The notes under the pieces: generated by a model
Told to the model about the DNA's origin: nothing
Database searches by the model: none
Seen by the model: only the letters and a program-made list of their open reading frames with translations
Shown: one piece after another, positions 4,771 to 22,237 of the stretch
Layout: every line of letters starts with the position of its first letter
Position numbering within the stretch: the first letter of the stretch is position 1
Program-made: the position numbers and the translations under genes
IMG/VR virus record: IMGVR_UViG_3300029258_002322
Coordinates: 1-39,531 of that record
Length of the DNA: 39,531 nucleotides
Reading direction: 5' to 3' (one strand)
Origin: a virus

Positions 4771-5340
4771 ATGCCCAGCACCGTCGAGATCGTCAACACC
4801 GGCCTCCAGCTTCTCGGCACGCGGCACATCACCGACCTCGAGGAGGCCTCGAAGGAGGCGCGCGAGACGGCGCTCGCCTGGCCGCAGATCCGGGACTACT
4901 GCATCCGGCTCCATCCCTGGAATTGCATCGCGAGCTACCACACGTTCTCGCCCGAGGCCGAGACGCCGGCGATGGATTGGGACTACCAGTACGTCCTGCC
5001 CGGCGACTGCGAGCACGTCTGGTCCGTCGACTCCGCGGACACCGACGACTGGCAGGTCCGAGGCCGGCGCCTCTACACCGACCTGGCCGGCCCGCTGACC
5101 ATCTCCTACGCGACGGAGGAGCTCGACTCCGCGCAGTTCGACGCGATGCTGGTCCGCTTCATGGCGCACGAGCTCGCCATCGCGACCTGCGAGGCCCTGG
5201 TCCAGAGCAAGACCAAGAAGCAGGAGCTCGAGAAGGCGCGCGACAAGATCCTGGCCGAGGCCGGCATCTCGGACGGGCGCGAGCAGTCGAACGCGGAGTT
5301 CATCGAGGACGATTGGGTCCTGGCACGATACCGGCGGTAG
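4771..5340 (+). CDS. Tail tubular protein A (T7 gp11-like)
   Basis: This 189-residue protein matches the podovirus tail tubular A family. The N-terminus ('VEIVNTGLQLLGTRHITDLEEASKEA') has the typical 'N..L..LG...I.s..e.s.eA' pattern, followed by 'PQIRDYCIRLHPWNCI' (the family's 'r...L..hpWnFA'), 'YQYVLPGDC' and 'ISYATEELDSAQFDAMLVRFMAHELA'. In T7 gp11 forms a dodecameric ring under the portal and joins it to gp12. The C-terminus is a helical tail rich in Lys/Glu. It is followed after three bases by the tubular B gene, the usual partner order. Confidence 0.9.
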   Translation: MPSTVEIVNTGLQLLGTRHITDLEEASKEARETALAWPQIRDYCIRLHPWNCIASYHTFSPEAETPAMDWDYQYVLPGDCEHVWSVDSADTDDWQVRGRRLYTDLAGPLTISYATEELDSAQFDAMLVRFMAHELAIATCEALVQSKTKKQELEKARDKILAEAGISDGREQSNAEFIEDDWVLARYRR

Positions 5341-5343
5341 GTC

Positions 5344-8055
5344 ATGGGTCAGAACGTCAACGCGATCCAGGAGGCCTTCGTCGGGGGCGAGCTCTCGCCG
5401 CTCTTGCAGGGCCGCGTCAACGTCGGCGCGCGGCGCGTCGGCTGCGAGACGCTTTCCAACTTCATCGCCACGGTGCAGGGGCCGGTGGTCAAGCGGGCCG
5501 GGACGCGGTTCGTCGCGCCGGCCAAGTACGACGACCGGGACGTTCGCCTCGAGCGGTTCGAGTTCTCGGCCGACCAGGCCTACTGCCTCGAGATCGGCCA
5601 CCTCTACATGCGCTTCCATCGGAACGAGGCGACGGTCCTGGCCGCCTCGCAGCCCATCCTGGGCACGCCGACGCAGGGCAACCCGGTCCAGCTCAACGTC
5701 GCCGGCCACGGCCTCTCGACGGGCCAGCACGTCTACGTCACCGGCTCAGCGATGGCCGAGCTCAACGAGCAGTTCTGGCGCGTCACGGTGGTCGACCCCA
5801 ACACGCTCGACCTGGACGACGCGGACGGCACGACCTGGTCGACCGGGACCGGCGGGACGATCGAGCCCATCTTCGAGCTCACGACGACGTACACCGACAG
5901 CCAGGTCCAGCAGATCCAGGTGGACCAGAGCAACGACGTCCTCTACCTGGCGCACCCGGACGTCGCGCCGCAGAAGCTCTCGCGCGTGTCGGACACGTCC
6001 TGGACGATGGTCGACCTGCCGCAGCGCGAGCCGGCCTTCAACCTGGAGAACGCCGACGAGTCGGTCACGGTCTACGCCTCGGCCGCGACCGGCGCGGCCG
6101 TCACGCTGACGGCCTCGGCGGCGATCTTCACCGCCAACATGGTCGGCGGCTACGTGAAGATCCGCGAGCTCTACGCTTCGGAGCACAACAAATGGGGACC
6201 GAACGCGATGATCACGCAGGTCAACATCAGCAATCCGCCGGTGACGACCGACCGCATCTACGCTGACGGCCGCGTCTACCGCCCGACCGGGACCTGGGAC
6301 GGGGCCGGCTTCCTGGGACTCACGACGCCGACGCACACGGACGGCGCGTTCTCGGACGGCCGGATCGAGTGGGAGTACATCAACGAGGGCTATGGCTACG
6401 GGCAGATCCAGAGCATCGGCGGCGGCGGGACGACGTGCGTCATCGACGTCGACACGGACGGCACCGAGCTCCCCGCCAGCGTCGTCGGCGCCGCGGCCGC
6501 GACGCACCGCTGGGCGATCAGCGCGTGGAATCCCGAGTACGGCTACCCGACCGCGGTCGGCTTCTTCGAGGATCGGCTCTTCTGGGGCGGCACCGAGCGC
6601 TTCCCGCAGACGGTCTGGGGCTCCGGGCCGGGCGACTACGAGAACTACGCCTTCGAGGGCGAGAACAACGAGGGCCTCTTCCTCGCGCTGAACACCCGGC
6701 GCCGCAACGTCCTCGAGTGGCTGATCGGCGAGGAGTCGCTGTGGTGCGGCACGCGCGGCGCCGAGTTCACGGTCGACAGCGGGAACGTCGAGCAGGCCCT
6801 CAGCCGCGAGAATTTCCTGCGGAAGAAGCGCTCGAGCTACGGCTCGAAGCGCGGCGTCTCGCCCCTGGCCGTCGACTCCTACACGCTGTTCGTCGCCCGC
6901 GCTGGCCGGCGCATCCACGAGCTCTCGTTCTCATTCGACCTGGACAGGTTCCAGGCGAAGGACCTGACCGAGATGAGCGACGAGATCCTGGCCGGCGGCG
7001 CGAAGGGCCTGGCCCAGGCGCGCGAGCCCTACCGCATGGTCTGGGTGTGGCAGGAGGACGGGAGCCTCTCGGCCATGACCTACGCGCGCGACCAGGAGGT
7101 CGTCGCCTGGCACCGGCACCCGCTGGCCGGGACCGGCTCGAAGGCCCTCTCGATGGCCGTGATTCCGCACCCGGACGGCGACGAGGACCAGAGCTGGATC
7201 GCGGTCGAGCGCCAGGTCAACGGGACGACGCGCAAGACGATCGAGTTCTTCGAGAAGCGATGGAAGCGCTCGCTCGACATCGAGGACGCCTTCTTCGTCG
7301 ACTCCGGCCTCTCGCTCCGGTACACGCCGCAGACCGGCACGGGGTACACGCAGGCCGGGCAGACGACGGTCCTGGCGGCCGGCCACGGGCTCCTGGCCGG
7401 CCAGCAGATCCGCATCGTGACCGACGCCGCCAACACCGCGCTCGAGGGCGAGGTCTTCGACGTGACCAATGTGACCGCGGCCGGCTTCGACATCGAACAG
7501 GGCGGCTCGCCGTTCACCGACCCGCTCACGCTGGCGGCCACGCCGACCTTCGTCCGCGTCGTCTCGACGCTCACACGGCTGCGCCACCTCGAGGGCGAGA
7601 CGGTGGCCGTCCTGGTGGACGGCGCCCCGGTCGACGACCAGGTCGTCGCCAACGGCGAGGTCACGCTCGCCGAGCCGGGCGCCGCGTTCGTCGTCGGCCT
7701 GCCCTATGTGGCGAAGGTCAAGACGATGCGCCTGGAGGCCGGCGGCCGCGTCGGCACTTCGCAGGGCCGGCTCAAGCGCTGGAACGGCCTGGTCATCCGG
7801 TGCGACCAGACGGGGCCGGGGCTCTTCTACGGCGACGACTTCGAGGAGAACGGCGGGACGATGGACGAGGCGTTCTTCCCCAACAGCGAGACGCTGATGG
7901 ACACGCCGATCCCGCTGCTCGACGCGGACACGGAGGACCTCTCCTTCCCTGGCGCCTACGAGCGCGCGGGCGCCATCGCGATCGAGCATCGCTCGGCGCT
8001 ACCCTGCACCGTGGTCGCCCTGATGCCGTCCGGCGAGCTTGAGGAGAGAACGTGA
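5344..8055 (+). CDS. Tail tubular protein B (T7 gp12-like tail nozzle)
   Basis: This 903-residue protein should form the distal tail tube or nozzle. The start ('QEAFVGGELSPLLQGRVNV'), 'GCETLSNFIATVQGPVVKRAGTRFV', 'PTAVGFFEDRLFWGGTERFPQTVWGS' and 'GTRGAEFTVDSG' are characteristic of phage tail tubular B proteins of the stabilisation/nozzle type. Two inserted beta domains of one kind are visible, around residues 112-180 and 665-735, each built on an 'AGHGL..GQ' entry and a 'F.VT.V' strand. They resemble FCCH-like insertions seen in other phage nozzles. The stop overlaps the GTG start of the next gene. Confidence 0.92.
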   Translation: MGQNVNAIQEAFVGGELSPLLQGRVNVGARRVGCETLSNFIATVQGPVVKRAGTRFVAPAKYDDRDVRLERFEFSADQAYCLEIGHLYMRFHRNEATVLAASQPILGTPTQGNPVQLNVAGHGLSTGQHVYVTGSAMAELNEQFWRVTVVDPNTLDLDDADGTTWSTGTGGTIEPIFELTTTYTDSQVQQIQVDQSNDVLYLAHPDVAPQKLSRVSDTSWTMVDLPQREPAFNLENADESVTVYASAATGAAVTLTASAAIFTANMVGGYVKIRELYASEHNKWGPNAMITQVNISNPPVTTDRIYADGRVYRPTGTWDGAGFLGLTTPTHTDGAFSDGRIEWEYINEGYGYGQIQSIGGGGTTCVIDVDTDGTELPASVVGAAAATHRWAISAWNPEYGYPTAVGFFEDRLFWGGTERFPQTVWGSGPGDYENYAFEGENNEGLFLALNTRRRNVLEWLIGEESLWCGTRGAEFTVDSGNVEQALSRENFLRKKRSSYGSKRGVSPLAVDSYTLFVARAGRRIHELSFSFDLDRFQAKDLTEMSDEILAGGAKGLAQAREPYRMVWVWQEDGSLSAMTYARDQEVVAWHRHPLAGTGSKALSMAVIPHPDGDEDQSWIAVERQVNGTTRKTIEFFEKRWKRSLDIEDAFFVDSGLSLRYTPQTGTGYTQAGQTTVLAAGHGLLAGQQIRIVTDAANTALEGEVFDVTNVTAAGFDIEQGGSPFTDPLTLAATPTFVRVVSTLTRLRHLEGETVAVLVDGAPVDDQVVANGEVTLAEPGAAFVVGLPYVAKVKTMRLEAGGRVGTSQGRLKRWNGLVIRCDQTGPGLFYGDDFEENGGTMDEAFFPNSETLMDTPIPLLDADTEDLSFPGAYERAGAIAIEHRSALPCTVVALMPSGELEERT

Positions 8056-8624
8056 AAAACCGACTAATCCTCTGTCTCTTCGCCCTGGGCGCCTGGCTCT
8101 CGCCTGGCGAGGTCGACCTGGTCGAGGGCGTCTCGCACGCCGCGATCCTGGCGGTCATCGCCGTGACCGCGATCCTGGCGACGCTCGCTTCGACGGGCGT
8201 CTCCGTCTACATGCAGCAGGAGGCCGCCCAAGCGCAAGAGAAGGCGGCCAAGCGCCAGGCCATCGCCAAGCGAGAGCAGGTCTACGCCGAGGACGAGCGG
8301 CTGCGCCGGCTGCGGAAGATCCACATGCGCCGGCTGCGCGAGGGGATCGGGAAGTCTGGCATCCGGGGCGACATCGGCACCGGCCTCGACGTGCAGCTCG
8401 ACACCTCGAGCGAGCTCGAGATGGACGCGCTCAACCGCCGCCAGACGAGCCTCTACAACATCGAGGAAGAGCGGGCGGCTGGGCTGAACCGGGCGAACGC
8501 GATGGAGCTCCAGGCCATCGCCACCGGCCTCCAGGGCGTCGGACAGGCCACGCAGATCGGCCTCGGCTACCAGGCCCTCGGCCGGCAGCCCTCGGGCGGC
8601 GACCAGTCTGGAGGGACTCAGTAA
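8052..8624 (+). CDS. Internal virion protein, T7 gp14-like
   Basis: This 190-residue protein begins at a GTG overlapping the tubular B stop. It has two hydrophobic N-terminal segments (about residues 4-16 and 30-50), then a long charged helix and the block 'GKSGIRGDIGTGLDVQLDTSSELEMDALN' followed by 'RRQTSLYNIEEERAAGLNRANAMELQA'. This matches the 'GVdlGSGSp.dvl...a..gelDal.iryna' layout of gp14-type internal proteins. In T7, gp14 leaves the capsid first and forms a channel in the outer membrane; the hydrophobic segments fit that. The gene is followed without a gap by the gp15-position gene. Confidence 0.8.
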   Translation: MKNRLILCLFALGAWLSPGEVDLVEGVSHAAILAVIAVTAILATLASTGVSVYMQQEAAQAQEKAAKRQAIAKREQVYAEDERLRRLRKIHMRRLREGIGKSGIRGDIGTGLDVQLDTSSELEMDALNRRQTSLYNIEEERAAGLNRANAMELQAIATGLQGVGQATQIGLGYQALGRQPSGGDQSGGTQ

Positions 8625-10276
8625 TGCCCCGCTTCCCCCAGGTCACTCGAGACGCGACCCCCGCGCCGGCGGCCGTGGATAGCGGCGCCGCCGCCCTGGG
8701 CGCCGCGGCGCGCTCCGTGGGTGCGGCCGGCCAGCAGCTCGCCGGGGTCGTCGCCGACGCCGGGCTCCAGTTCGCACGGCAGCGCATCAGCGAGGCCGAG
8801 CAGGACGCGCGCGTCGCGGCCGCCGACTACGAGGTCGAGCTCCAGCAGGAGTGGCAGCGGATCGAGCAGGAGGAGCCCGACCACAACAAGCGGGAGGAGC
8901 TCTTCCGGGACGCGGCGAAGGTCGCGCGGGACGCCTACGCGGATCGCTGGTCCGGTCGGTTCATGGGCCGCGCGAGCGAAATTTTCGACGAGCGGGCGAA
9001 CCTGGTCACGGAGCGCCAGGAGCTCGTGGTCCGCCAGAACGTCTGGAACGAGCGCGTCCGCGTGCGGCGCGGCGCCGTCCTGCGCGTCATCGACCAGAAG
9101 ATCCAGGTCGGCTCCGGCCTGCCCGAGGCGATGCACGGCGTCTACCTGGCCGAGATCGACGACGAGCTCAGCCGCGCGGTGCAGGACAACCTGCTCCCCG
9201 AGGACGAGGCGGCGCGGCTGCGCATCTCGGCGCGCACGCAGCTCCGCACGCGGTTCGAGAGCCTGCGCGTGTCGCGCGAGGCCGACCAGGTCGTGCAGCA
9301 GGCCCTCGCGATCCGCGGGCTCGACGGCACGGACGAGGACCCGGACGGCGAGGCGACCCGCGAGTCGGTCGCGAAGATGCTGGCCGAGATCGACGACGGC
9401 GAGGTCCGCGACCTGGCCCTGCGCCGCTGGCGTGCCCTCGAGGCCCAGCGCGAGGTCGAGCTCGCCCAGGACCGCCAGCGCCTCTACGACCAGGCGACGA
9501 CGGACATCGCGAACGGCGACGGCCACGACGCCATCCCGGCCGGCCTGACCGGCTCGCAGCAGCAGAGCCTCGAGCGCTACGCGGACTACGTCATCGACCG
9601 GCAGACCGAAGGGAAGCTCACCGACATCGAGACGGTGCCGGAGGTCTACGACCGCGTGATGGGTCTGCTGACGACCGACCGGGAGGCCTTCCTCGAGGAG
9701 GACGTCTACGCGCTCCGCATGGAGCTCGCCAACGCCGACTTCAACTTCTTCCTCGGCGCGCAGGCCGAGCTCCGCGCCGGCGCCGGCCGCAGCGCGGCGG
9801 GCGCGGCGGCGCCGGCCTACGCCTCGGGGCCGCGCTGGCTGGCCGCGCAGCGCATCGACGAGCTCGAGCGCCAGGGCCTCCTCCTGACCGAGGGCAGCGA
9901 GCCGGAGGACAGCCGCGGCCAGGTCCACCTGGACCTGTACGACTCGCTCAACCGGGCGCGCGAGCAGCGGCGCACGGAGACGGGCAATGCCGCCTACGAG
10001 CTCTCGGAGGACGAGGCGCGGCGCGCGATCGACATCGTGCTCCTGAACCGCCGGGTCGAGGTGCCGATCCCCTGGTGGCCGGACGGCGAGTCCCGCCCCG
10101 CGGACCTCACGGTCAAGGACCTGGGCCGCATCCAGTTCGACCTGGACCACCCGATCCACCGCGACGTCATCAACGAGGCTGCGGCCGAGGGCGAGACGGT
10201 GGAGCCGGGATCGGCGCGCGTCCGCATCCTGATCCGCGAGCGCCTCGAGATGCTGGGGGCGGACTTCGGTGGCTAG
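8624..10276 (+). CDS. Internal virion protein, T7 gp15-position helical protein
   Basis: The ATG at 8624 overlaps the TAA of the previous gene and gives 550 residues; the upstream extension of this frame overlaps the gp14-like gene and looks like non-coding Arg/Gly sequence. The protein is almost wholly alpha-helical and charged. It has an N-terminal helix pair ('FARQRISEAEQDARVAAADYEVEL'), a long middle solenoid-like region, and a C-terminal part with 'DLGRIQFDLDHPIHRDVINEAAAEG'. It stands between gp14-like and giant gp16-position proteins, so it most likely builds the periplasmic tunnel of the ejection apparatus. Sequence similarity to T7 gp15 is not visible by eye. The stop overlaps the next start by 8 bases. 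Confidence 0.7.
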   Translation: MPRFPQVTRDATPAPAAVDSGAAALGAAARSVGAAGQQLAGVVADAGLQFARQRISEAEQDARVAAADYEVELQQEWQRIEQEEPDHNKREELFRDAAKVARDAYADRWSGRFMGRASEIFDERANLVTERQELVVRQNVWNERVRVRRGAVLRVIDQKIQVGSGLPEAMHGVYLAEIDDELSRAVQDNLLPEDEAARLRISARTQLRTRFESLRVSREADQVVQQALAIRGLDGTDEDPDGEATRESVAKMLAEIDDGEVRDLALRRWRALEAQREVELAQDRQRLYDQATTDIANGDGHDAIPAGLTGSQQQSLERYADYVIDRQTEGKLTDIETVPEVYDRVMGLLTTDREAFLEEDVYALRMELANADFNFFLGAQAELRAGAGRSAAGAAAPAYASGPRWLAAQRIDELERQGLLLTEGSEPEDSRGQVHLDLYDSLNRAREQRRTETGNAAYELSEDEARRAIDIVLLNRRVEVPIPWWPDGESRPADLTVKDLGRIQFDLDHPIHRDVINEAAAEGETVEPGSARVRILIRERLEMLGADFGG

Positions 10277-13200
10277 TCCCTTCGACGACCTCGAGATCGC
10301 GTTTCAGTCGGCGAGCGTCCTGAGCGCGCCGGAGTACGCCCGCGGGCTGCGCCTGGCGACCGAGGCCCAGGTCCCGGTCGACACCGCCATGCGGAACGCC
10401 GACGAGCTCGAGCGGCGCCAGAATCGCCCGGATATGCGGCAGTACGCGGCCGAGAACCCGCTCACCGCCGGCTGGCTGCGCAACAACCTGGAGGCGGTGC
10501 CGGCCGTCCAGGACGACCTCGAGGAAATGTCGATCTTCGAGCGCATGATCGGCGACGTCGGGGTCAACTTCGAGAAGAGCCTCAACCGATTCAACTCGCA
10601 GCCTCACAAGCTGCGGGCCCTCTTCGGCCAGGCCGACGACTACGACGAGGCGATGATCCGTTACTACCAGGCCGAGGCGGCCGGGCTCGAGCAGGAGGCC
10701 AGCCGGTACGGCCTGTCGAACCCCTGGCAGTCCTGGCAGCAGGGGCGCTACGGCGACTTCCTGGCGGCCGTGCCGGGCGCCGTCGTCGAGCAGTCGACGA
10801 TTCTGGCCGACCAGGTCGTGTCCCGCGCGGCGGGGTTCGGCATCGGATTCGTGGGCGGGGCGGCCGCGGGCGTGGGCACCGGCCCTGGGATGCTCGCGAC
10901 CGGCCTGGCCGGCGCCGCGGTCGGGCAGAACCTCGGCGGCTTCATCTCGAGCTACAAGATGGAGTCGGCCCTGCTCTACGAGGAGCTCCGCGACCTCGAG
11001 GGCATCGACGAGGACCACGCGCGCTACCTGGCCGGGACCGCCGCGATCCCGATCGCGTCGCTCGAGTTCCTGCCGATCACCGCCCTGACCAAGAAGATCC
11101 CCGGCGTCGGCCGCACGCTCACGGCCTGGACGACGGACGCGATGGTCGAGGTGCTCAAGAAGCAGTCGTTCCGGTCGGCGACGAAGCACCTGGTCTTCGA
11201 GACGGCCGGCCAGGCCGGCGTCGAGGGCGTGACGGAGGTGCTCCAGGAGACGCTGGGCATCCTGGCCGAGATGGCCGGTCACGAGCTCGCGGGCGACAAT
11301 TGGGAGGAGGCCCTGGTCATGCAGGTCCCGCAGCCGGACGGCTCCGTCGTCGAGCTCGTCGGGATGGATGCGGTGATGGCGCGGCTGATGACGGCCGGCG
11401 TCCGCGGCGCGCAGGGCGGCGGCGGCATGTCCGGGATCATCACCGCCGGCGGCGTCGTGTCGGACGTCGCGACGGCCGAGCGGTCGGAGACGCGCTGGGA
11501 GCTGGGCGCCCGGCTCACGCGCCTGGCCCAGCGCTCCAATCTGCGCGAGCAGCAGCCCGAGCTCTACCAGGACTACGTGCGCGAGGTCGTCGAGCAGGGC
11601 GCCGCGCCCGAGCACGTCTACGTGAACGCCGAGAACCTGCGCGAGCACTTCGAGACGATGCCCGACGAGGAGGCCGAGGCGCTCCTCGAGCAGGTCCCGG
11701 CGCTCCTCGAGCAGGACGCCGAGGTGCTCCGCACGGGCGGCGACTTCGTCATCCCGATGGACCAGTACCTCCGCGGCATGGCGCCGAGCTCCATCCTCCA
11801 GAATCTCGGCGAGCACATTCGCTTCGCGGCCGAGGACCTGAGCCAGGCCGAGGTGCGGGAGAAGATCGAGAGCGGCGCCTTCGCGCGGGAGTTCTCCAGC
11901 ATCCTCGAGCGGGTCGACGACGAGGAGGCCGGCGTCCTGGTCGCGGTGCGCGAGCACCAGGAGGAGCAGCTCCGGCGCGTCCACGCGCCGACGCAGGCCG
12001 CGGCCCTGGCGGCCTGGCAGGTCGCGCGACTCCAGCGTCGGGTCGAGGCCCTGCGCGAGGACGGGGTCGACATCAGCATCGCCAACCTGATCGCGCAGCA
12101 GGGGCTCCCGGTCATCCGGCCGCCGGAGACGAGCGACGAGGCGATGGCGAAGATCGTCGAGAACACGCCGACCCTCGAGCAGCGCCTCGAGCGGCGGTCG
12201 ATCCTGCGCCAGGTCGACGACCTGCGGAAGAACCGCCGCCGCGCCCTCGAATCCATGCCGGCCAGGCCGGTCCTCTCGGCCCTGCGCGACATCGGCGGCA
12301 TCGACCCGGACTCGCCCCTGGCCGGCGACCTGGAGAGCCTGGGCGTCGCCCGGCGCGGCCGCGGCTCGTTCCCTGGCATCTACCGCCGGGGCGCCGAGGG
12401 CCTGGACCAGCGCGACCTGACGGAGTCGCCGATCACGGAATGGCTGGGCGAGTTCCTCGAGCTCGACGAGTACGGCCGCGGCGACCCCAACGCCATCCTC
12501 GGGCTGATCGAGCAGGAGCTCGCCGGCCAGGGTCCGCGGCCGTTCGAGCAGGCCGAGCAGCTCGCCCAGGAGCGCCAGGGGCGCGAGGCCCTGCTCAACG
12601 CGATGGAGGCGGCCGGCGTCAAGCTGACCGACGACGACCAGAAGATCGCCGAGGCGCTGGTGCCGGTGGCCGCGCGCCGCGCGGTCGAGCCGGTGCGGCC
12701 CGAGGGCCGGCAGTTCTTCCAGGTCAACGAGCGGCGAACGGTCGAGGAGACGGTGGCGTCGGAGGCGTTCCAGCGCTGGCTGGGCGACGCGCGCCTGGTC
12801 CTCGAGCCCGAGCTCCACGACTTCCAGCCCGGCGAGGCGGTCGTCGTCCTGGCCTATCACGGGACGACGCACGAGCTCGACACCGTCGAGGCCGGCGTGG
12901 GGAACCCCGAGAATTTCCTGGGGCGGGCGTTCTACGCCACGAGCTCCGAGCAGGACGCGCTCGACAACTATGCCGGGATCGGGCCGGACCTGACCGCGCG
13001 CATCCAGCAGCGCGTCGACCAGCTCGAGCAGGAGATGATGGACGACCTGGAGGGGTTCGACCTTCCTCCCGACACGCTGCCGGGCTCGAGCGCGATCAGC
13101 GCGAAAGCCTACGAGGTCGCGCAGTCCGAGCTCGTCGGCGCCCTGGGCGAGGAGGGCCAGGTCCTCCCGGTCTTCATCAAGCTGGAGAATCCGGCGATCC

Positions 13201-16200
13201 TCGCGGGCGACCAGCGGGCCGGGCACTTCGTCGAGCTCTACGAGTACGGCGAGGAGGACGCGGACGGCGACGTCGAGATCGACGAGTCGCGCCTTGAGGC
13301 AGTCGTCGACTACCTCGAGGGCCTGACCCAGAACGATGGGCTCTGGGACGTCAACGTCGAGAGCATCGTCCAGGGGCTCACCGAGAACGGCGGCGAGATC
13401 ACGGTCGACGACCTGGTCGACGCCGTGAAGCACGACAATTACGCGACCGACGAGACGGGCCGGCTCTTCGCGAGCGAGATGGCGATGGGCGTCCTCCAGG
13501 CCCTCGGCTTCGACGGCGTCATCCAGCTCGACGCCGCCGAGCGGTGGCGGAACATGGCGATCCCGGCGGACGCGGTCCACGTCATCGTGCCCGATCCGGG
13601 CGGCGCCGTGAAGAGCACGCAGGCCTCGGTTTTCGACCCCAAGAGCGACCGGATCTTCTTTCAGCCGGTCGGCGAGCTCGAGCCGGTTCCGCTCGAGAAG
13701 AAGGGCCCGCTCTACTCGAAGATGCGCCAGGTGCTCGAGGACAAGCTGCCCGCGAAGGGCACGCCCCAGAGCTACCGCTCGACGATTGAGAAGATGGGCA
13801 AGACCGGGAAGTACAAGGCCGACGAGCTCGACGTCTCCGGCCTGATCCCCTGGCTGATGGCCCACCCGGCGAAGAAGCTGACGAAGGACGAGGTCTTCGC
13901 GTTCCTCGACGCCCAGGGCCCGAGCATCATCCTCGAGCGTAGGGGCGGGCGGAACGCCGACCAGGCCGACCGCAACAACCTGAACGTCGAGGTCGACATC
14001 GAGACGTTTGACCGCGACGCCGCCTACGACGATCTGATCGAAGGAGAGCGCGAGTTCGTCCGCGACTACGTCGAGCAGGAGGTCCGGGACCGGCCGGAGG
14101 ACTTCGGCCTGGAGCCCGACGAGGACGGGAACATCGAGGACTTCGCCATCAACGACGAGGTCCAGAACCAGCTCAACAGCGGCGCCTGGGACGAGATGGT
14201 CGAGAGCCAGATGCAGCAGGCGATGGAGGACGCGGAAGCCGACTTCGTCCCGTACATCGAGGGCCAGGAGTGGGGCGAGCTGGGCTACCGCTTCGAGCCC
14301 TACAGCGGCCCGCTCGAGTTCGCGATCTACGACGGCGACCGGAATCGGGTCGGCACGTTCGAGGCCCTCTACCCCGAGCCCGACGAGATCGAGGAGCGCT
14401 TCATCGAGGCCCTGGTCGAGATCGGCGCGGTCTACGACGAGGACAACGATCCGAGCGGGACCGAGTACGAAAACTGGACCGTCCCCGGCGACCGAGAGGA
14501 GTACCAGGAGGTCACGCTCGCGCTGCCCGAGGCGCTGACCTGGAACGTCACCCGGTTTCTCTCCGAACGCGGCCTGGACGTGAAGGACGCCATCGCCTTC
14601 GACAAGGTGCTGATCGAGAACGGGGTCGCCCGGCACTTCGGCATCGAGCAAGGCGTCCCGGTCGAGCGGTGGGAGGCGCGCGAGAAGGCGGTCCTCGAGC
14701 AGGAGCTCAACGACTACGAGCAGGGCAGCGTCGAGAACCGCAACGCCGTCCTGTTCCGAGCGGTGAAGCGCGCGTCGCCGGCGGACCTGCGGAAGCACCA
14801 CGAAACCTGGGGCTGGATCGCGGGCCTCCTGCGCCACCCGGACGCCACGATCGGCCCGGTCTATCGCGACCCGCACTTCCACCAGGAGCGGACGATCGGC
14901 CACTACCGGCGCGACCTGCGGAAGCCTCCGAGCCGCGTCGAGGACGGCGTCGAGTTCATCCCTCTGGGCCCGATCTTCTTCCTCGAGGAGCTCCAGAGCG
15001 ATTGGCACAACGACGCGCGGAAGGACTACAAGAAGGCCTACCGCGCGCTCCGCGACGAGGGCTACAGCCGCGAGGAGGCCAAGGCCGCGGCGTCTGGGTA
15101 CATCGACATGGAGGCCTGGGGCAAGCTCAAGACCCAGGAGCGGCTGATCTACCAGTTGGGCAACGACCGCCAGACGCTCGAGCGCCAGATCGAGGGAATG
15201 GAGCCGGGGAGCGACGCGGCGCACACCTACATGAAGGGGGCGATGGAGCTTCGCGAGCGGCTGCGCCGGCTCCGGGCCGGGACGCTCGTCCCGCCGTTCG
15301 ACGGCGGCGGCCCCGAGCTCAGCGCCGAGGAGTACGGCCAGCGCCGCCAGGCCGCGATCGACCGCGAGACGGCCGAGACGGAGAGCGCGCTGGCGACGCT
15401 CGAGAGCGCCTTCGACGAGCAGAGCCTTTCCCCGCGTGCGATGGAGGTCCTCGAGGCCATTCGGAACCTCGACGCCGAGCTCCTGGTCGCGAAGGCGAGG
15501 CTGCGAGAGATGCAGCAGGACACCGCGTTCGAGTGGGCGACCAAGGGCGTCCCCAACGCTCCGCTCAAGAACGCCTGGAGGATGCTCGTCTTCAAACACG
15601 CGCTCCTCGACGCGATCGAGCAGGGCGCCAAGCGCTTCCAGTGGGCAACCGGCGCGCAGACCGCCGAGCACTACAGCCTGCGCAAGACCGTCGACCGCAT
15701 CGAGACAGGGCCGACGCCGGCGGCCTCGCAGAGGTTCGCGGGCAAGCTCGACGTCGACATCGTGATGCAGGACAACCGGGGCACCATTGGCCTGATCGTC
15801 GAGCCGTCGACCGGCATCGTTCTCCAGGGGGACGATAAGTTCTTCGACGAGGACCTGCGAGACATCATCGGCACCGAGGTCGCCGAGCGCGTCCTCGCGG
15901 CTGGCAACCGCGAGCTCGAGAAGAAGCAGCGCGCGATGGACCGGGACATCGTCCCCTACCCCTTCTCGATGGTCGACCAGGGCACGACCGAGGATCGCTC
16001 TGCGCAGTTCGCGCTGCGCCGGCGGGACGCGGGCGAAGAGGTCTTCGCGGTGCGCAGCCGTGAGGGCATCTGGGACCGCTACGAGGAGACGACCGACTGG
16101 AGCGTGATTCGGGCGTTCACCTCGGAGGCCGAGGCGCAGGCCTACATCGAGGCGTCCGCCGAGCGGGCCGGCCTCGACTCCGTTCAGATCAGCGGCAAGG

Positions 16201-19200
16201 ACCTCGAGCTGGGCGGCGAGTGGGCGGTCCACCTCTACGACAACACGATGCCGCGCGAGATCGGCAAGCTGCTCAAGCCCTGGGGCGTCGAGGTCAAGAA
16301 GCTCCCGCTCGAGGTCGGGCATCGGGCGATCCCGCGCTTCGAGCCCAATTCGATCTGGGAAAACGCGACGGCCGACGACGTCGCGGAATCGCTGCAAGGG
16401 GTCGACCGCACCGAGGGGGCCGCAGAGTTGAGCATGTGGAACGCGCTCAACTCCGTCGAGCACGCCATGCGGAACCAGGGCCTTTCGTTCCAGCGGGCGA
16501 TGTCGCTCCACGGCAACGCCCTGGTGTCGAGCACGTTCAGCATGGGGGCTTTCGAGTTCGACCGCGAGATCCGCGTCGAGGACACCTGGGGCTTCGAGAT
16601 CACCGACGAGCTCGTGCGCGGCGTGCGCGAAGAGGGGATGGAGCTCTTCCAGCCCGAGGACACGAGCGAGGGCCCGACCGGCGCGGTCCCGCCGAAGGGC
16701 GAGCGCCGCGGCAGCGTCCGTATCGCGCCCGACCTGAGCCAGAAGGAGATCGTCTGGACCGAGAAGGCGGACCTCTCGACCTTCCTCCACGAGAACGGGC
16801 ACGTCTGGCTCGAGGAGCTCAAGGCTGACGCCGCCCTGGCCGGCGAGGGCTCTGCCCTGGCGCGCGACCTCCAGGTCCTCCGGCAGTTCTTCGGCCTCGA
16901 GGAGGGCCAGGACTTCTCCGACAAGCACCACGAGCGCTTCGCCCGCATGGTCGAACAGTGGATCATGGAGGGGAACGCGCCGAGCCTCGAGCTCGAGCCG
17001 CTCTTCATGCGCTTCCAGCGCTGGCTGGTCGACGTCTACCGGACGATCCGCAACAGCTACTTCGGCGGGCCGCAGCTCACCGACGAGGTGCGCGGCATCC
17101 TCGACCGCATGGTCGCCAGCGAGGAGGCGATCCAGGAGGCGCGGAACGCGCGCGGCCTGTCCATCGAGCTCTTCGAGGACGCCGGCGAGGCCGGCATGGA
17201 CCTCCAGGAGTGGAACGACTACCGCGGCGCCCTCGAGCAGGGACGGCTCCACGCGCGGACCTGGATGGTCCGCAAGATGGTCGCCGAGGAGAAGCGGAAG
17301 CTGGCGAAGGAGTGGCGCCGGCTGCGCGAGATCGAGGAGAAGCACGTCCTCGAGGAGATCGCCGGCGAGGGCCTCTGGGCCGCGCGCCACTGGCTCCAGC
17401 GGAACACGTCGATCGACGGGCGCGAGCTCTTCGAGGAGGCCCAGGAGCACGTCCGCCTGGACCGCGACGACCTGGTCGCGCGCTGGGGGCGGGACATTCT
17501 CAAGGAGATCCCGCGCGGGAAGTACGGCGTCTGGCAGAAGGACGGCGCCCCGGTCGACCTGGTCGCGTCCTGGTTCGGGGTCGACGCGGACGAGCTCGTC
17601 CGCTTCCTGGCCGACACGAAGGGCACGCCCCTCAAGGACGAGATCGCGCGTCGCACCGATGCCAACATGAAGGACAAGCACGGGACGCTCGAGACGAGCG
17701 AGCAGCTCGAGCAGGCGGCGGTCGAGGCGCTCAACCAGGACGCCGCGCTGCGGGCCCTGCTGATTGAGGAGCGCGCCCTGGCGCGCAAGAGCGGCGGCCG
17801 CGCGACGGCCGAGAAGCTGCTCCGGCTCCAGGCGAAGCGCACCGTCCAGGACACCCGCATCATGGACCTGCGCCCGGACCGGCTGCGGCGAGCGGCCGAG
17901 AAGGCCGCGCGGGACGCGCAGCGGTTCGTCCAGGAGGGCGACGCGAAGAGCGCGCAGCTCGCGAAGCAGCGCCAGGTCTTCTCGCTGATGGTCGAGGTCG
18001 AGGCCCGGCGCGGGCGCGAGCGCTCCGAGCGCAACCAGGAGTTCTTCTACCGCATCCAGGACTCGAAGAACGCGACGCGGATCAAGCTCGTGAAGGCGGG
18101 CGACCGCTACGTCGACCAGGTCGACAAGCTGATGGAGCGCTTCGGCTTCAAGCGGATCAGCCGCAAGAAGATCGAGCAGCGCCAGAAGCTCCGCGACTTC
18201 CTGAGCGACCGCGAGCGGGACGACGAGTCCGTCGCCGCGATCCCCGAGTGGGTGCGCGACGAGGCGATGCAGAAGAATTGGAAGGAGCTCACGGTCAGCG
18301 AGCTCGACGGCCTGCGCGACTCCGTCGACAACATCGTGACCCTCGCCCGGCGCAAGGTCGAGCTGATGGTGGGGAGCGAGCACCGCGAGATGGACGCCCT
18401 GGCCGAGGAGCTCGCCCAGGTCGCGCGCGACAACGTGGGCGCCCGGCTGGTGACGCCGCCCGGCTCGCAGCGGCGCGGGCTCAAGGGCAAGTGGGATCGC
18501 GGCACGGCGGCCCTGATGTCCTACGAGGCCTCGCTGCTCAAGATCGAGCAGGTCATCGACCGCATCGACGGCTTCGTCCCGGACGGCCTGTGGCGCAAGA
18601 CGATCTGGCAGCCGCTCCGCGACGCGGCGACCGAGCGCCTCGAGATGAGCGAGAAGATCACCGCGCAGTATGAGCGCATGGTCAAGGAGCTCGCCGAGGG
18701 CCGCGCCCGCGAGCTCAACGAGGTGAAGCACTACCCCGAGCTCGAGCGGCCGGGCGTCACGGACGGGCGATACTCCAAGTGGTCGCTGATCGTCATCGCG
18801 CTCAACCTGGGCAACGAGTCCAACGCGATGAAGCTGACGAAGGGGTACAACTGGAACGAGCAGCAGCTCCTCGCCATCCTCGAGCGCGAGCTCACGGCGA
18901 AGGACCTGGCCTTCGTCCAGGAGACGTGGAACCTGGTCAACTCGCTCTGGCCGAAGATCGTCGAGCAGGAGAAGAAGCTGTCCGGCGTCATCCCCGAGGC
19001 CGTCGAGGGGCGCGACGTGAAGATCGGCGGCACGACCCTCAAGGGCCGCTACTTCCCCGTCGTCTACGACCTCCAGACCCGCACGACCCAGGGCGACACG
19101 CGCGTCCAGGAGTGGGGCGAGGCGGGCGAGCTCTTCGAGACGGAGCAGAACCAGTTTCGTCGGCCGCTCACCGGCCACGGCCACACGGAGCGCCGCACGG

Positions 19201-20474
19201 GCGCGGCCTTCCCGATCCTGCTCGAGGCCTCGGTCATCGCGTCGCACCTGGACCAGGTCGTCCTGGACCTCACGCACCGCGAGACGCTGATGCGGATCGA
19301 CAAGATCCTGCGGCGGCCCGACATCAAGCAGGCCCTCAACGAGACGATCGGCGAGGAGGACCGCAAGCAGTTCCGGCCCTGGCTCCAGCGGATCGCGTCC
19401 GACCGCTACATCGCGACGAGCTCCTTGCAGGGCATGGACCGGATCTACCGCTTCTTCCGCACGCGGACGACGGCCCTCGGCCTGGGCCTGCGCGCGACGA
19501 CGCTGGCGATGCAGGTCGGCGGCCACTCGAACGGCATCCAGCTCCTCCGCGACCGCCTGGGGCGGAAGAACTACCTCCGGCACTACATGGGCGCGGTGGG
19601 CCAGACCGGCATGGCGTTCTCGCCTGGCCGTCTGCTCGCGCTCCAGAACGAGGTGTTCGAGCTCTCCGGCTTCATGCGGGACCGGGTCGCCAATCTCGAC
19701 CGCGACATGCGGCAGATTCAGCGGGAGGCCGAACGCAGCGGTGCGCTGCCGGGCGAGAAGATGACCGACTTCCCGGCCAGGGCGCGCTCCTGGGCGCTGG
19801 GCCTGATTGGCCGGATGCAGATGAACACGGTCGACCTGCCGATCTGGCTGGCCGCCTACAACGGCGCGCTCGAGGACCTGGGCCTGGACGGCGACGCGGC
19901 CGTCTCGTTCGCCGACCAGATGGTGAGTCAGAGCCAGGGCTCCGGCGCGGCGATGGACCTGTCGGCGGTGCAGGCCGGCGCCGAGGCCTACAAGCTGGCC
20001 ACGATGTTCTTCTCGTACCAGAACACGGTCTACCAGCAGCTCCGCAACTCCTTCCTGCGCGCTCGAGACAAGGGCGAGTATTGGAACGCGGCGGGCACGG
20101 CCGTCTTCTGGCTGATGGCCCCGGCCGTCTTCTCCCAGCTCGTGCGCTCCGTCCTCTCGCAGCACGGCGAGCTCCCCGAGGAGCCCGAGGACTGGCCGTG
20201 GTGGTTGGCCGGCGCCACGCTGAACGAGGCCCTCGGTACAATCCCGGTCGTGCGGGAGGTGTCTCCGCTGGTGGGCCAGGCCTTCGGCTACGGCAAATAC
20301 TTCCCCTCGAGGACCGCCTCGCAGCGGTTCGCCGAGGACTTCCAGCGCGCGGCGCACTTCAACGATGACGACTGGTTCCTCGAGCTCGCCGCGTTCGTGA
20401 CGGGCTGGGTCGGGGGCCTCCCGACCGCGGGACCGATCGACGCCTACGAGCTCCTCGAGGAGGGCAAGAAATGA
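10269..20474 (+). CDS. Giant 3,401-residue polyvalent ejection protein (ART-like, EIQSDWH-type and HExxH peptidase-like domains)
   Basis: The GTG start overlaps the gp15-position gene, so this occupies the T7 gp16 slot and is likely ejected into the host with the DNA. Visible modules: a helical N-terminus with a Gly/Ala hydrophobic stretch (about 175-225); an 'IGGIDPDSPLAG' domain (675-686); an ADP-ribosyltransferase-like region starting at HGT (864-866), with 'AFYATSS' and a 'VFIKLENPAIL' strand, ending at IFFQ (1129-1132); a region with EELQSDWH (1573-1580), 'WATGAQTAEHYSL' and GGEW (1982-1985); a zincin-like site HENGH (2174-2178) followed by 'HERFARMVEQWIMEG' with E2229 as possible third ligand; a long helical region; and a C-terminus with hydrophobic helices. 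These match domains of phage polyvalent proteins. I see no lytic transglycosylase motif. Enzyme activities are inferred. Confidence 0.88.
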   Translation: MASPFDDLEIAFQSASVLSAPEYARGLRLATEAQVPVDTAMRNADELERRQNRPDMRQYAAENPLTAGWLRNNLEAVPAVQDDLEEMSIFERMIGDVGVNFEKSLNRFNSQPHKLRALFGQADDYDEAMIRYYQAEAAGLEQEASRYGLSNPWQSWQQGRYGDFLAAVPGAVVEQSTILADQVVSRAAGFGIGFVGGAAAGVGTGPGMLATGLAGAAVGQNLGGFISSYKMESALLYEELRDLEGIDEDHARYLAGTAAIPIASLEFLPITALTKKIPGVGRTLTAWTTDAMVEVLKKQSFRSATKHLVFETAGQAGVEGVTEVLQETLGILAEMAGHELAGDNWEEALVMQVPQPDGSVVELVGMDAVMARLMTAGVRGAQGGGGMSGIITAGGVVSDVATAERSETRWELGARLTRLAQRSNLREQQPELYQDYVREVVEQGAAPEHVYVNAENLREHFETMPDEEAEALLEQVPALLEQDAEVLRTGGDFVIPMDQYLRGMAPSSILQNLGEHIRFAAEDLSQAEVREKIESGAFAREFSSILERVDDEEAGVLVAVREHQEEQLRRVHAPTQAAALAAWQVARLQRRVEALREDGVDISIANLIAQQGLPVIRPPETSDEAMAKIVENTPTLEQRLERRSILRQVDDLRKNRRRALESMPARPVLSALRDIGGIDPDSPLAGDLESLGVARRGRGSFPGIYRRGAEGLDQRDLTESPITEWLGEFLELDEYGRGDPNAILGLIEQELAGQGPRPFEQAEQLAQERQGREALLNAMEAAGVKLTDDDQKIAEALVPVAARRAVEPVRPEGRQFFQVNERRTVEETVASEAFQRWLGDARLVLEPELHDFQPGEAVVVLAYHGTTHELDTVEAGVGNPENFLGRAFYATSSEQDALDNYAGIGPDLTARIQQRVDQLEQEMMDDLEGFDLPPDTLPGSSAISAKAYEVAQSELVGALGEEGQVLPVFIKLENPAILAGDQRAGHFVELYEYGEEDADGDVEIDESRLEAVVDYLEGLTQNDGLWDVNVESIVQGLTENGGEITVDDLVDAVKHDNYATDETGRLFASEMAMGVLQALGFDGVIQLDAAERWRNMAIPADAVHVIVPDPGGAVKSTQASVFDPKSDRIFFQPVGELEPVPLEKKGPLYSKMRQVLEDKLPAKGTPQSYRSTIEKMGKTGKYKADELDVSGLIPWLMAHPAKKLTKDEVFAFLDAQGPSIILERRGGRNADQADRNNLNVEVDIETFDRDAAYDDLIEGEREFVRDYVEQEVRDRPEDFGLEPDEDGNIEDFAINDEVQNQLNSGAWDEMVESQMQQAMEDAEADFVPYIEGQEWGELGYRFEPYSGPLEFAIYDGDRNRVGTFEALYPEPDEIEERFIEALVEIGAVYDEDNDPSGTEYENWTVPGDREEYQEVTLALPEALTWNVTRFLSERGLDVKDAIAFDKVLIENGVARHFGIEQGVPVERWEAREKAVLEQELNDYEQGSVENRNAVLFRAVKRASPADLRKHHETWGWIAGLLRHPDATIGPVYRDPHFHQERTIGHYRRDLRKPPSRVEDGVEFIPLGPIFFLEELQSDWHNDARKDYKKAYRALRDEGYSREEAKAAASGYIDMEAWGKLKTQERLIYQLGNDRQTLERQIEGMEPGSDAAHTYMKGAMELRERLRRLRAGTLVPPFDGGGPELSAEEYGQRRQAAIDRETAETESALATLESAFDEQSLSPRAMEVLEAIRNLDAELLVAKARLREMQQDTAFEWATKGVPNAPLKNAWRMLVFKHALLDAIEQGAKRFQWATGAQTAEHYSLRKTVDRIETGPTPAASQRFAGKLDVDIVMQDNRGTIGLIVEPSTGIVLQGDDKFFDEDLRDIIGTEVAERVLAAGNRELEKKQRAMDRDIVPYPFSMVDQGTTEDRSAQFALRRRDAGEEVFAVRSREGIWDRYEETTDWSVIRAFTSEAEAQAYIEASAERAGLDSVQISGKDLELGGEWAVHLYDNTMPREIGKLLKPWGVEVKKLPLEVGHRAIPRFEPNSIWENATADDVAESLQGVDRTEGAAELSMWNALNSVEHAMRNQGLSFQRAMSLHGNALVSSTFSMGAFEFDREIRVEDTWGFEITDELVRGVREEGMELFQPEDTSEGPTGAVPPKGERRGSVRIAPDLSQKEIVWTEKADLSTFLHENGHVWLEELKADAALAGEGSALARDLQVLRQFFGLEEGQDFSDKHHERFARMVEQWIMEGNAPSLELEPLFMRFQRWLVDVYRTIRNSYFGGPQLTDEVRGILDRMVASEEAIQEARNARGLSIELFEDAGEAGMDLQEWNDYRGALEQGRLHARTWMVRKMVAEEKRKLAKEWRRLREIEEKHVLEEIAGEGLWAARHWLQRNTSIDGRELFEEAQEHVRLDRDDLVARWGRDILKEIPRGKYGVWQKDGAPVDLVASWFGVDADELVRFLADTKGTPLKDEIARRTDANMKDKHGTLETSEQLEQAAVEALNQDAALRALLIEERALARKSGGRATAEKLLRLQAKRTVQDTRIMDLRPDRLRRAAEKAARDAQRFVQEGDAKSAQLAKQRQVFSLMVEVEARRGRERSERNQEFFYRIQDSKNATRIKLVKAGDRYVDQVDKLMERFGFKRISRKKIEQRQKLRDFLSDRERDDESVAAIPEWVRDEAMQKNWKELTVSELDGLRDSVDNIVTLARRKVELMVGSEHREMDALAEELAQVARDNVGARLVTPPGSQRRGLKGKWDRGTAALMSYEASLLKIEQVIDRIDGFVPDGLWRKTIWQPLRDAATERLEMSEKITAQYERMVKELAEGRARELNEVKHYPELERPGVTDGRYSKWSLIVIALNLGNESNAMKLTKGYNWNEQQLLAILERELTAKDLAFVQETWNLVNSLWPKIVEQEKKLSGVIPEAVEGRDVKIGGTTLKGRYFPVVYDLQTRTTQGDTRVQEWGEAGELFETEQNQFRRPLTGHGHTERRTGAAFPILLEASVIASHLDQVVLDLTHRETLMRIDKILRRPDIKQALNETIGEEDRKQFRPWLQRIASDRYIATSSLQGMDRIYRFFRTRTTALGLGLRATTLAMQVGGHSNGIQLLRDRLGRKNYLRHYMGAVGQTGMAFSPGRLLALQNEVFELSGFMRDRVANLDRDMRQIQREAERSGALPGEKMTDFPARARSWALGLIGRMQMNTVDLPIWLAAYNGALEDLGLDGDAAVSFADQMVSQSQGSGAAMDLSAVQAGAEAYKLATMFFSYQNTVYQQLRNSFLRARDKGEYWNAAGTAVFWLMAPAVFSQLVRSVLSQHGELPEEPEDWPWWLAGATLNEALGTIPVVREVSPLVGQAFGYGKYFPSRTASQRFAEDFQRAAHFNDDDWFLELAAFVTGWVGGLPTAGPIDAYELLEEGKK

Positions 20475-22237
20475 CGATCAGCGCAGCGAGCTCGAACCGC
20501 GTCCGCCTGGCGGGCACCGGCAGCGAGCTCAACTTCAACTTCGACTTCCGCATCCTGAAAGCCGAGGACCTCCTGGTCGTCGTCCAGGACGCGGCCGGCG
20601 TGGACACGACCAAGACCTTGACGACCGACTACACGGTCAGCGGGGTCGACGACGAGAACGGCGGGACGGTCACGTTCCTGGTGCCGCCGGCTGCGACCGA
20701 GTTCGTGTCGATCATCCTGGACCCGGACGTCGAGCAGCCCACGAGCCTGTCCAACAAGGGCCAGCTCCCCTCGAGGTCGATCGAGAAGGGGCTCGACCGC
20801 AACGTCAACATCATCAAGCGAGCTCGCGACCTGATCGAGCGGGCGCTCACGCTGGGCGAGGGCGACGCGGACGGATCGGGCGCCTACGAGGCCAACGGCA
20901 ACCGCATCGAGAACCTGGGCGCGGCGATCAACGACGCCGACGCGATGACGAAGGCCGCCGTCCAGGCGCTCGTTGCGGCTGCGGTGCTCTCGCCCTCGAC
21001 CGTGGTGTCGGCCTTCGGCGCCACGCTGATCGACGACGCGACGGCGGACGACGCGCTCGTCACCCTGGGCGGCGGGACGAAGGGCATCGCGCTCTTCAAG
21101 GACACGACCAACGCGGCCGTCTTCACGGAGCTCGGGATCACGTCCTCGGCGATCCAGCTCTTCCTGGCGTCCGTCAATGCGGCGGCCGGCCGGCAGAACC
21201 TCGGAATCCCCGGCGTCATCCCGAACCCGAATTGGCTCGACAACTCCGACATGCAGGTCTGGCAGCTCGGCACGACCTTCAACAACTCGACTCCGTTCAC
21301 GAACGCGAACGGCGATGCGGAGTGGACGGCCGACCGCTGGCGGCTGCTGACGAACGGGGTCGACGTGGTCGACGTCGCGAAGAGCGCCGTCAACGACGTG
21401 CCGGTCGGCGCGAAGAGCGGCCTGGTGGTGACGCAGCAGATCGCCGACACGAAATGGGGCCTGGTCCAGGTCCTCGACCAGGCGAAGAGCGAGGCCCTGG
21501 CCGACCAGGCCTGCTCGCTGTCGATGCGCATCAAGGCGCCGAACGACCTCAAGCAGTTCAAGCTCCTGGTGGCCGAGTGGACCGGCACGGCCGACGCGCC
21601 GACCGCCGACCCTGTCTCGGCCTGGAACGGCGCGCAGGTCCGGCCGACCCTGGTCGCGAATTGGGCCTACGTGTCGGGCGCGGAGCTCGACATCACGGTC
21701 GCCGGGTCGGATTGGGAGACGTTCGAGCTCGAGAATTTCACGATGGGGAGCTCGCCGAACAACCTGGCCGTCATCCTCGTGACCAACGCCGCCAGCTTCG
21801 GCGTCTCCGCGGCCGTCCACGTCTCGGGGGTCAAGCTCGAGCTCGGCGCCGTCTCGACGCCCTACGAGTCCAAGAGCTTCGCGACCGAGTGGGCCGAGGC
21901 CCGGCGCTTCTTCTGGAAGACGTTTGACGAGCAGGTCTTCCCGGAGCAGAACAGCGGGGACGAGGTGGGCGCGATCGTCGCGCACATCCTCAACAACGCG
22001 AGCACCAACGAGCTCGAGGCCTACGTGCGCTTCGAGGTGCCGATGCTCAAGGCGCCCACGCTCACGACCTTCAACCCGCACGCCGCCAACGCGAATTGGC
22101 GGAACGACGGGAACACGGGCGACCTGGCCCTGGGCAACAGTCGCTCCGACCGCGTGGCCTTCTATCTGGGGTCGGCGGACGCCGGCGGCCTGGACGACTT
22201 CTACCTGATTCACGCGAGCGCTGACGCTCGCATCTAG
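20471..22237 (+). CDS. Tail fibre with T7 gp17-type N-terminus
   Basis: This 588-residue protein overlaps the giant gene by ATGA. The N-terminus ('VRLAGTGSELNFNFDFRIL', 'TDYTVSGVDDENGGTVTFL', 'SRSIEKGLDRNVNIIKRARDL') has the layout of the T7 tail-fibre attachment domain that binds the tubular proteins. A helical and repetitive shaft follows. From about residue 250, 'NPNWLDNSDMQVWQLGTTF' and 'WTADRWRLL' begin a beta-sandwich of the kind found in carbohydrate-binding fibre tips, ending with 'VKLELGAVSTPYESKSF'. The last 100 residues form a further beta-rich cap. It should recognise a surface glycan of the host. There is no obvious chaperone gene beside it. Confidence 0.85.
   Translation: MTISAASSNRVRLAGTGSELNFNFDFRILKAEDLLVVVQDAAGVDTTKTLTTDYTVSGVDDENGGTVTFLVPPAATEFVSIILDPDVEQPTSLSNKGQLPSRSIEKGLDRNVNIIKRARDLIERALTLGEGDADGSGAYEANGNRIENLGAAINDADAMTKAAVQALVAAAVLSPSTVVSAFGATLIDDATADDALVTLGGGTKGIALFKDTTNAAVFTELGITSSAIQLFLASVNAAAGRQNLGIPGVIPNPNWLDNSDMQVWQLGTTFNNSTPFTNANGDAEWTADRWRLLTNGVDVVDVAKSAVNDVPVGAKSGLVVTQQIADTKWGLVQVLDQAKSEALADQACSLSMRIKAPNDLKQFKLLVAEWTGTADAPTADPVSAWNGAQVRPTLVANWAYVSGAELDITVAGSDWETFELENFTMGSSPNNLAVILVTNAASFGVSAAVHVSGVKLELGAVSTPYESKSFATEWAEARRFFWKTFDEQVFPEQNSGDEVGAIVAHILNNASTNELEAYVRFEVPMLKAPTLTTFNPHAANANWRNDGNTGDLALGNSRSDRVAFYLGSADAGGLDDFYLIHASADARI

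Follow-up and report, generated by a model that had tools for sequence, protein, structure and literature searches.

The stretch of DNA analyzed here, referred to below as the window, is the whole of the 39,531 nucleotides of IMG/VR virus record IMGVR_UViG_3300029258_002322. Identical copies of a 144-bp direct terminal repeat are found at its two ends (1-144 and 39388-39531), and because of that repeat the record probably is a complete genome, one of 39,387 unique bp. The portal gene may cross the terminal-repeat join. Single-sequence searches of IMG/VR found no close relatives of this phage. Of interest here is a run of genes on the plus strand, the strand to which, unless indicated otherwise, all coordinates below refer. 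These encode, in order, tail tubular protein A (4771..5340; phrog_394), tail tubular protein B (5344..8055; phrog_376), a 190-aa ORF, a ‘gp15-slot’ internal protein (8618..10276, its start at 8618 being inferred from the first internal ATG), a giant protein (10269..20474), and a tail-fibre-like protein (20471..22237; phrog_1640). This order matches gp11-12-14-15-16-17 of phage T7, with the giant gene following tubular B and the gp14- and gp15-slot genes, i.e., the T7 gp16 slot, just as an earlier, first-pass annotation of this DNA had placed it. A tubular B gene followed by ejection-protein genes has been described as a mark of ejectosomal podoviruses (PMC10386132). The protein of the gp15 slot matches no PHROG and is weakly similar to a structural lysozyme of Pseudomonas phage HU1 (E 4e-4); in many relatives an annotated structural lysozyme is found at the place of this gene.

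The giant gene reads as one open frame of 3,401 codons with a GTG start, and its 10,206 bp represent 26% of the unique sequence, i.e., the quarter of the genome that had been claimed for it. The motifs quoted in that annotation are present at the residues given there, that is, HGT at 864, AFYATSS at 887, EELQSDWH at 1573, GGEW at 1982, and HENGH at 2174-2178. Hydropathy reveals hydrophobic segments toward both ends, two in the N-terminal region (residues 183-210 and 253-274) and one close to the C-end (residues 3274-3297; 20088..20159). The encoded protein matches phrog_9880 (E 1e-267), the family of which Bbp10 of Bordetella phage BPP-1 is a member. By tblastn, residues 2131-3401 match 41 phage records, all at less than 60% identity, and these include BPP-1 Bbp10, Pseudomonas phages AF and HU1, Cobetia phage Carin1 (gp32), Caulobacter phage SR18, Xanthomonas phage CP2, and Nostoc phage Nsp-JY18, with identity to the nearer isolates being 28-31% over about 1200 aa. 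A profile search using the C-terminus found relatives encoded in at least 592 viral-contig stretches. Searched by sequence, the PDB supplied no relative of the giant protein.

Comparison of 76 full-length members indicates a single family plan, consisting of an N-terminal block, a variable region, a zincin, and a C-side of constant length. Here the term ‘chassis’ is used to describe the conserved portions and ‘bay’ to describe the variable region which lies between them. The N-terminal chassis block, of about 530 positions (residues 19-565; 10323..11963), was matched by iterated HMM in 76 of the 76, and it contains, as Gly/Ala-rich stretches, the two N-terminal hydrophobic segments noted above. 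Within the window protein an LPD22 domain is found at its start (residues 17-96; 10317..10556), scoring 39.9 bits against Pfam PF18834, for which the cut-off is 28.6 (E 5e-10). The distance from the HExxH motif of the zincin to the end of the protein is nearly fixed, at 1251 +/- 55 aa (CV 0.04), versus 1171 +/- 486 aa (CV 0.41) from the start of the protein to that motif. What follows the zincin is a helical C-terminal chassis (residues 2261-3401; 17049..20471), modeled, within 1195 aa, as mostly helical (mean pLDDT 82.7). The first-pass annotation had described modules fused to an ejection protein between hydrophobic-rich ends. The ejection-like flanks stand, but the fusion is family-wide rather than peculiar to this phage.

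The zincin occupies residues of about 2139-2260 (16683..17048), with HENGH at 2174-2178 and a downstream glutamate, E2222, completing the signature. An HExxH is present in all 76 full-length members, i.e., in 75 by pattern and as HESGH in the remaining one (L090), and HExxH plus the downstream Glu are invariant in 67 aligned rows as well as in 17 isolates. As modeled, the domain consists of a hairpin of two strands, the helix bearing HExxH, and, farther along, a helix carrying E2222 (model helices 34-56 and 83-99), a predicted layout which agrees with the published description of MPTases (PMC5512222). Pfam zincin models (MPTase-PolyVal) found no match in 17 members, nor did the NCBIfam CLCA_X model in the window protein or four relatives. 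Neither of two models gave a significant zincin fold match, with the zincin in one being a small domain inside of 1195 aa. The zincin is always found at the junction between bay and C-terminus, and its site is intact in four members (L024, L067, L050, and MZH) whose bays are only 22-63 aa long. Because the site is kept where the bay is nearly empty, the zincin is a part of the chassis rather than cargo. The earlier proposal that HENGH marks one of several effectors therefore holds as regards the zincin signature but was dropped as regards effector cargo, since the motif is universal across the 76 members.

The bay of the window protein extends over residues 566-2138 (11964..16682), i.e., 1,573 aa. 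Bays among 75 members range from 22 to 2,381 aa with a median of 358. That of the window protein holds an ART domain and what is here called a QSDWH domain. The Pfam scan, covering 69 bays, identified ART-PolyVal in 19, GNAT in 6, PBECR5 in 5, LPD3 in 4, and MuF_C, PBECR1, and DUF7178 in 3 each, with LPD5, LPD23, LPD1, ddrB-ParB, GGDEF, Zeta toxin, DUF3293, and others found in single bays. By domain assignment, that is, bays hold polyvalent effector families that have already been described. One bay matches NCBIfam CLCA_X (E 2.5e-46), and judging from that match the cargo can itself include a zincin, one distinct from that of the chassis. The homologue in Caulobacter phage SR18, a phage of lab strain CB15, is of 2,002 aa and carries an ART. 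The longest bay, of 2,381 aa, belongs to a 4,254-aa relative (L035) which has two ART-like motifs, at about 860 and at 1629, and a compact QSDWH (2620-2850) at about 2667.

The ART domain of the window protein spans residues 834-1137 (12768..13679). Against Pfam ART-PolyVal (PF18760) this region scores 25.9 bits (E 1.9e-5), which is below the cut-off of 31.2. It nevertheless aligns end to end with parts of gp321 of jumbo phage Tunturi_5 (E 2e-25) and of a protein of Myxococcus phage Mx1 (E 3e-20), both of which do pass that cut-off (E 5.8e-23 and 8e-19; 69-83 bits), and with both it shares H864, Y889, and D1082. In ARTs of the H-Y-D clade the His is found on strand 1, the Tyr on strand 2, and the Asp on strand 5 (PMC5512222). 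This triad along with the end-to-end homology bears out the ART-like region that had been proposed, and supports the view that the bay holds a polyvalent-type ART with an H-Y-D catalytic signature. Against the Pfam library, LPD22 was found above its cut-off, the ART of the window was found below its own, and MPTase-PolyVal was not matched. Tunturi_5 gp321 (L020, 2755-6843), although annotated as MutT/NUDIX, itself has an HExxH as well as a pair of HGT motifs of the ART-like kind, and going by those motifs it would be a further polyvalent protein.

Between the ART and QSDWH domains is a stretch (residues 1138-1530; 13680..14858) with no Pfam match at cut-off. The QSDWH domain then follows at residues 1531-2017 (14859..16319), recognized as three collinear HMM pieces (E 1e-11, 1.5e-22, and 2e-8). 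Family motif blocks are, in order, H..R, EExQSDWH, VPDAPFK, and GGEG, and the window retains H1536, R1547, E1574, Q1576, S1577, D1578, and W1579 while departing from a near-invariant consensus at 1798 (Q to T) and at 1801 (R to H). A gap between HMM pieces, with predicted helices, corresponds to a long-helix insert (residues 1607-1741; 15087..15491). The model has a mean pLDDT of 76.5, and the fold search, dominated by this insert, returned no useful match. The family is found in at least 566 viral-contig stretches; its carriers are phage ORFs of 366-4032 aa, as among viral contigs L104-L183. From these profile matches QSDWH is judged to be a real and widespread phage domain, one that no Pfam model describes. 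The module which the first-pass annotation saw between EELQSDWH and GGEW is in this sense genuine, but an effector role for this predicted domain is a guess. With LPD22, ART, QSDWH, and zincin in one chain, and within a late gene order, the window protein has the mix of disparate domains expected of a polyvalent protein.

Bay contents turn over as the chassis persists. With a FastTree C-side tree of 73 members, 23 of them ART carriers, ART presence requires 19 changes versus a mean of 19.6 given shuffled labels, with 90 of 200 label shuffles needing 19 or fewer. Because the observed number is so near the shuffled mean, ART is, on this tree, not inherited together with the chassis. Sister phages are set apart by clean insertions in the bay. 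For UFJF and L043, with flanks that are both 95% identical, the insert is of 187 aa. V1185 and MZH, 73-78% identical, have a bay difference of about 440 aa, and L048, which has an ART, is 74% identical over the C-side to L058, which does not.

That these are ejection proteins is suggested by gene position, by a weak similarity to gp16 of phage epsilon15, and by a predicted-fold match, none of which is decisive. Epsilon15 gp16 is listed among ejection proteins (PMC8954989), and the N-block HMM matches it at 25.5 bits, with the best of 500 shuffles reaching 3.3; by hhalign the match, to a Gly/Ala-rich region, has an E of 0.001 and a probability of 20%. The same HMM found no match to T7 gp14, gp15, or gp16, or to P22 gp7, gp16, or gp20. 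As for fold, VIA-align of the C-terminal model ranked four T7-type gp16/core chains 5 to 8 at Z 5.9-6.2, values from a Foldseek-filtered list which do not reach the caution level of Z 8 and can arise by chance, and the four chains, being mutually homologous, count as one match. The T7 chains matched are gp16 by sequence. The resembling part lies at about residues 2756-3153 (18534..19727), and it overlaps a sub-significant hhalign match to a T7 gp16 profile (E 0.024, probability 2%). Foldseek alone returned nothing significant for this model. Literature searches turned up virion proteomics for no member of the Bbp10-type proteins.

We consider it fairly probable that the giant protein serves a podovirus of the BPP-1 type as its gp16-slot ejection protein, with a conserved chassis, i.e., N-terminal hydrophobic block, zincin, and helical C-terminus of about 1,150 aa, built around an exchangeable cargo bay. 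Packaging, ejection, self-cleavage, enzyme activities, and host targets we infer, as follows. Produced late, the protein would be packaged inside the head, to be ejected before or together with the DNA. The chassis would help to build an envelope conduit and would take the bay into the cytoplasm. The zincin most likely would cleave its own chain, either during assembly or after entry, such that the N-part plus cargo is split from the conduit part, and the predicted ART would ADP-ribosylate a host target as infection begins.

Self-cleavage is plausible by analogy, as the polyvalent DdrB of phage P1, which includes an MPTase domain, undergoes processing ahead of packaging (PMC5512222), and the constant position of the zincin, at the bay/C-terminus junction, points in the same direction. 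The virion RNA polymerase (vRNAP) of phage N4, however, an ejected giant which also contains an HExxH, is packaged unprocessed (PMC5512222). In addition, cargo release cannot be the only job of the zincin, because its catalytic residues are kept by members with nearly empty bays. Both considerations favor an alternative in which the zincin instead targets the ejection apparatus, or envelope or host proteins, with bay domains acting while still attached to a membrane-anchored chassis. Given DdrB and the constancy of position, we view that alternative as rather unlikely.

Greater doubt attaches to the idea that bay domains are not effectors but serve the virion or its assembly, i.e., in packing, spacing, or superinfection functions. 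QSDWH and many bay stretches, which are without known activity, would be compatible with such a role. Bays also carry, however, catalytic families with roles in conflict (ART, PBECR, GNAT, Zeta toxin, and GGDEF), and the ART of the window retains its triad even as ART content turns over rapidly, so this idea we take to be improbable. Least credible, to the point of being very nearly dismissed, is that the giant protein is a cell-wall lysin. Database labels such as ‘lysin’, ‘lysis protein’, and ‘crystallin beta/gamma motif’ are attached to homologues in BPP-1, Caulobacter, and Nostoc phages, and gp16 of OANV1 has been treated as lysis-related (PMC9239159). The window protein nonetheless has no peptidoglycan hydrolase domain, and in relatives the transglycosylase or lysozyme is a separate, upstream gene. 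The ‘lysin’ and ‘crystallin’ labels were rejected, there being no such domain in the window protein.

Among known systems, the nearest are Bbp10 and its phrog_9880 homologues (AF, HU1, Carin1 gp32, and SR18), which share with the window protein a homologous N-block, the zincin, the whole of the C-terminus, and the same gene order, at the 28-31% identity given above. Bbp10, however, is shorter, at 2,052 aa, and its bay is of 216 aa, versus the ART- and QSDWH-containing bay of 1,573 aa seen here. The Bbp10 zincin was recognized earlier, with residues 700-1000 being a seed of the CLCA_X family (PMC3650047); the NCBIfam model misses those chassis zincins which were tested. Polyvalent proteins (Iyer et al. 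2017, PMC5512222) likewise combine disparate domains, including ART, zincin, and LPD, in a late structural context. What was described there is a domain network, whereas here it is a single conserved chassis of ejection type, into which cargo is inserted at one fixed bay, as followed over 76 full-length members.

The closest functional analogue, arguing from layout, is N4 vRNAP (gp50; PMC12633501), which likewise is a giant with an N-domain, a central enzyme, an HExxH domain, and a long helical C-terminus, but whose central enzyme is an RNA polymerase. To it the C-end of the window protein has a weak fold match (Z 3.9), and hhalign around the HExxH gives E 0.006 at a probability of 6%; HMMs of the C-terminus against the N4 and RPP1 vRNAPs were not significant. 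T7 gp16 is similar in gene position, in the C-terminal fold match at Z of about 6, and in having an enzyme fused to an ejection protein. It differs in that this enzyme is an N-terminal transglycosylase, in lacking zincin and bay, and in having no significant profile match. Epsilon15 gp16, from a BPP-1 relative, is weakly similar in its hydrophobic block, but it is of only 634 aa, without zincin or cargo, and the C-terminal part of the giant protein is without detectable counterpart there.

Polyvalent proteins were already known, as were the ARTs and MPTases found in them and the zincin of Bbp10. None of the open papers searched, however, presents the Bbp10 family as built on a conserved chassis of ejection type around a bay of exchangeable content, or treats the zincin as one of the constants of such a chassis. 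The conserved chassis with exchangeable bay appears to be new. A broader possibility, to which we would give a little less than an even chance, is that in a large podovirus lineage the ejection protein is a delivery vehicle of universal use, in which the bay is standard and rapidly exchanged, a built-in metallopeptidase matures the ejected chain, and the cargo is tuned to host defenses or physiology. If so, then such a vehicle would be a phage counterpart of polymorphic toxins. The family as described here gives the general idea that phages inject multidomain effectors a concrete, testable form. One recognizable chassis is found in hundreds of short-tailed phages, the bay content of each can be listed, and there are natural sister pairs which differ mainly by a single cassette. 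The bays would represent a systematic source of early-infection effectors, i.e., ART, PBECR, GNAT, and Zeta-like, along with unnamed ones such as QSDWH, and the system offers a route to asking what a zincin does inside of an ejection protein.

Two minor observations concern annotation. Limnohabitans phage DC33 (L015, PQ492659.1) has Inoviridae in its taxonomy line, yet it possesses a podovirus-like giant gene and a 39-kb genome. Opposite the giant gene, on the minus strand of the window (10170-20357), there is an antisense open frame of 3,395 aa in exact codon register. This frame is explained by the sense gene, which is without TTA, CTA, and TCA codons and has a GC3 of 0.96.
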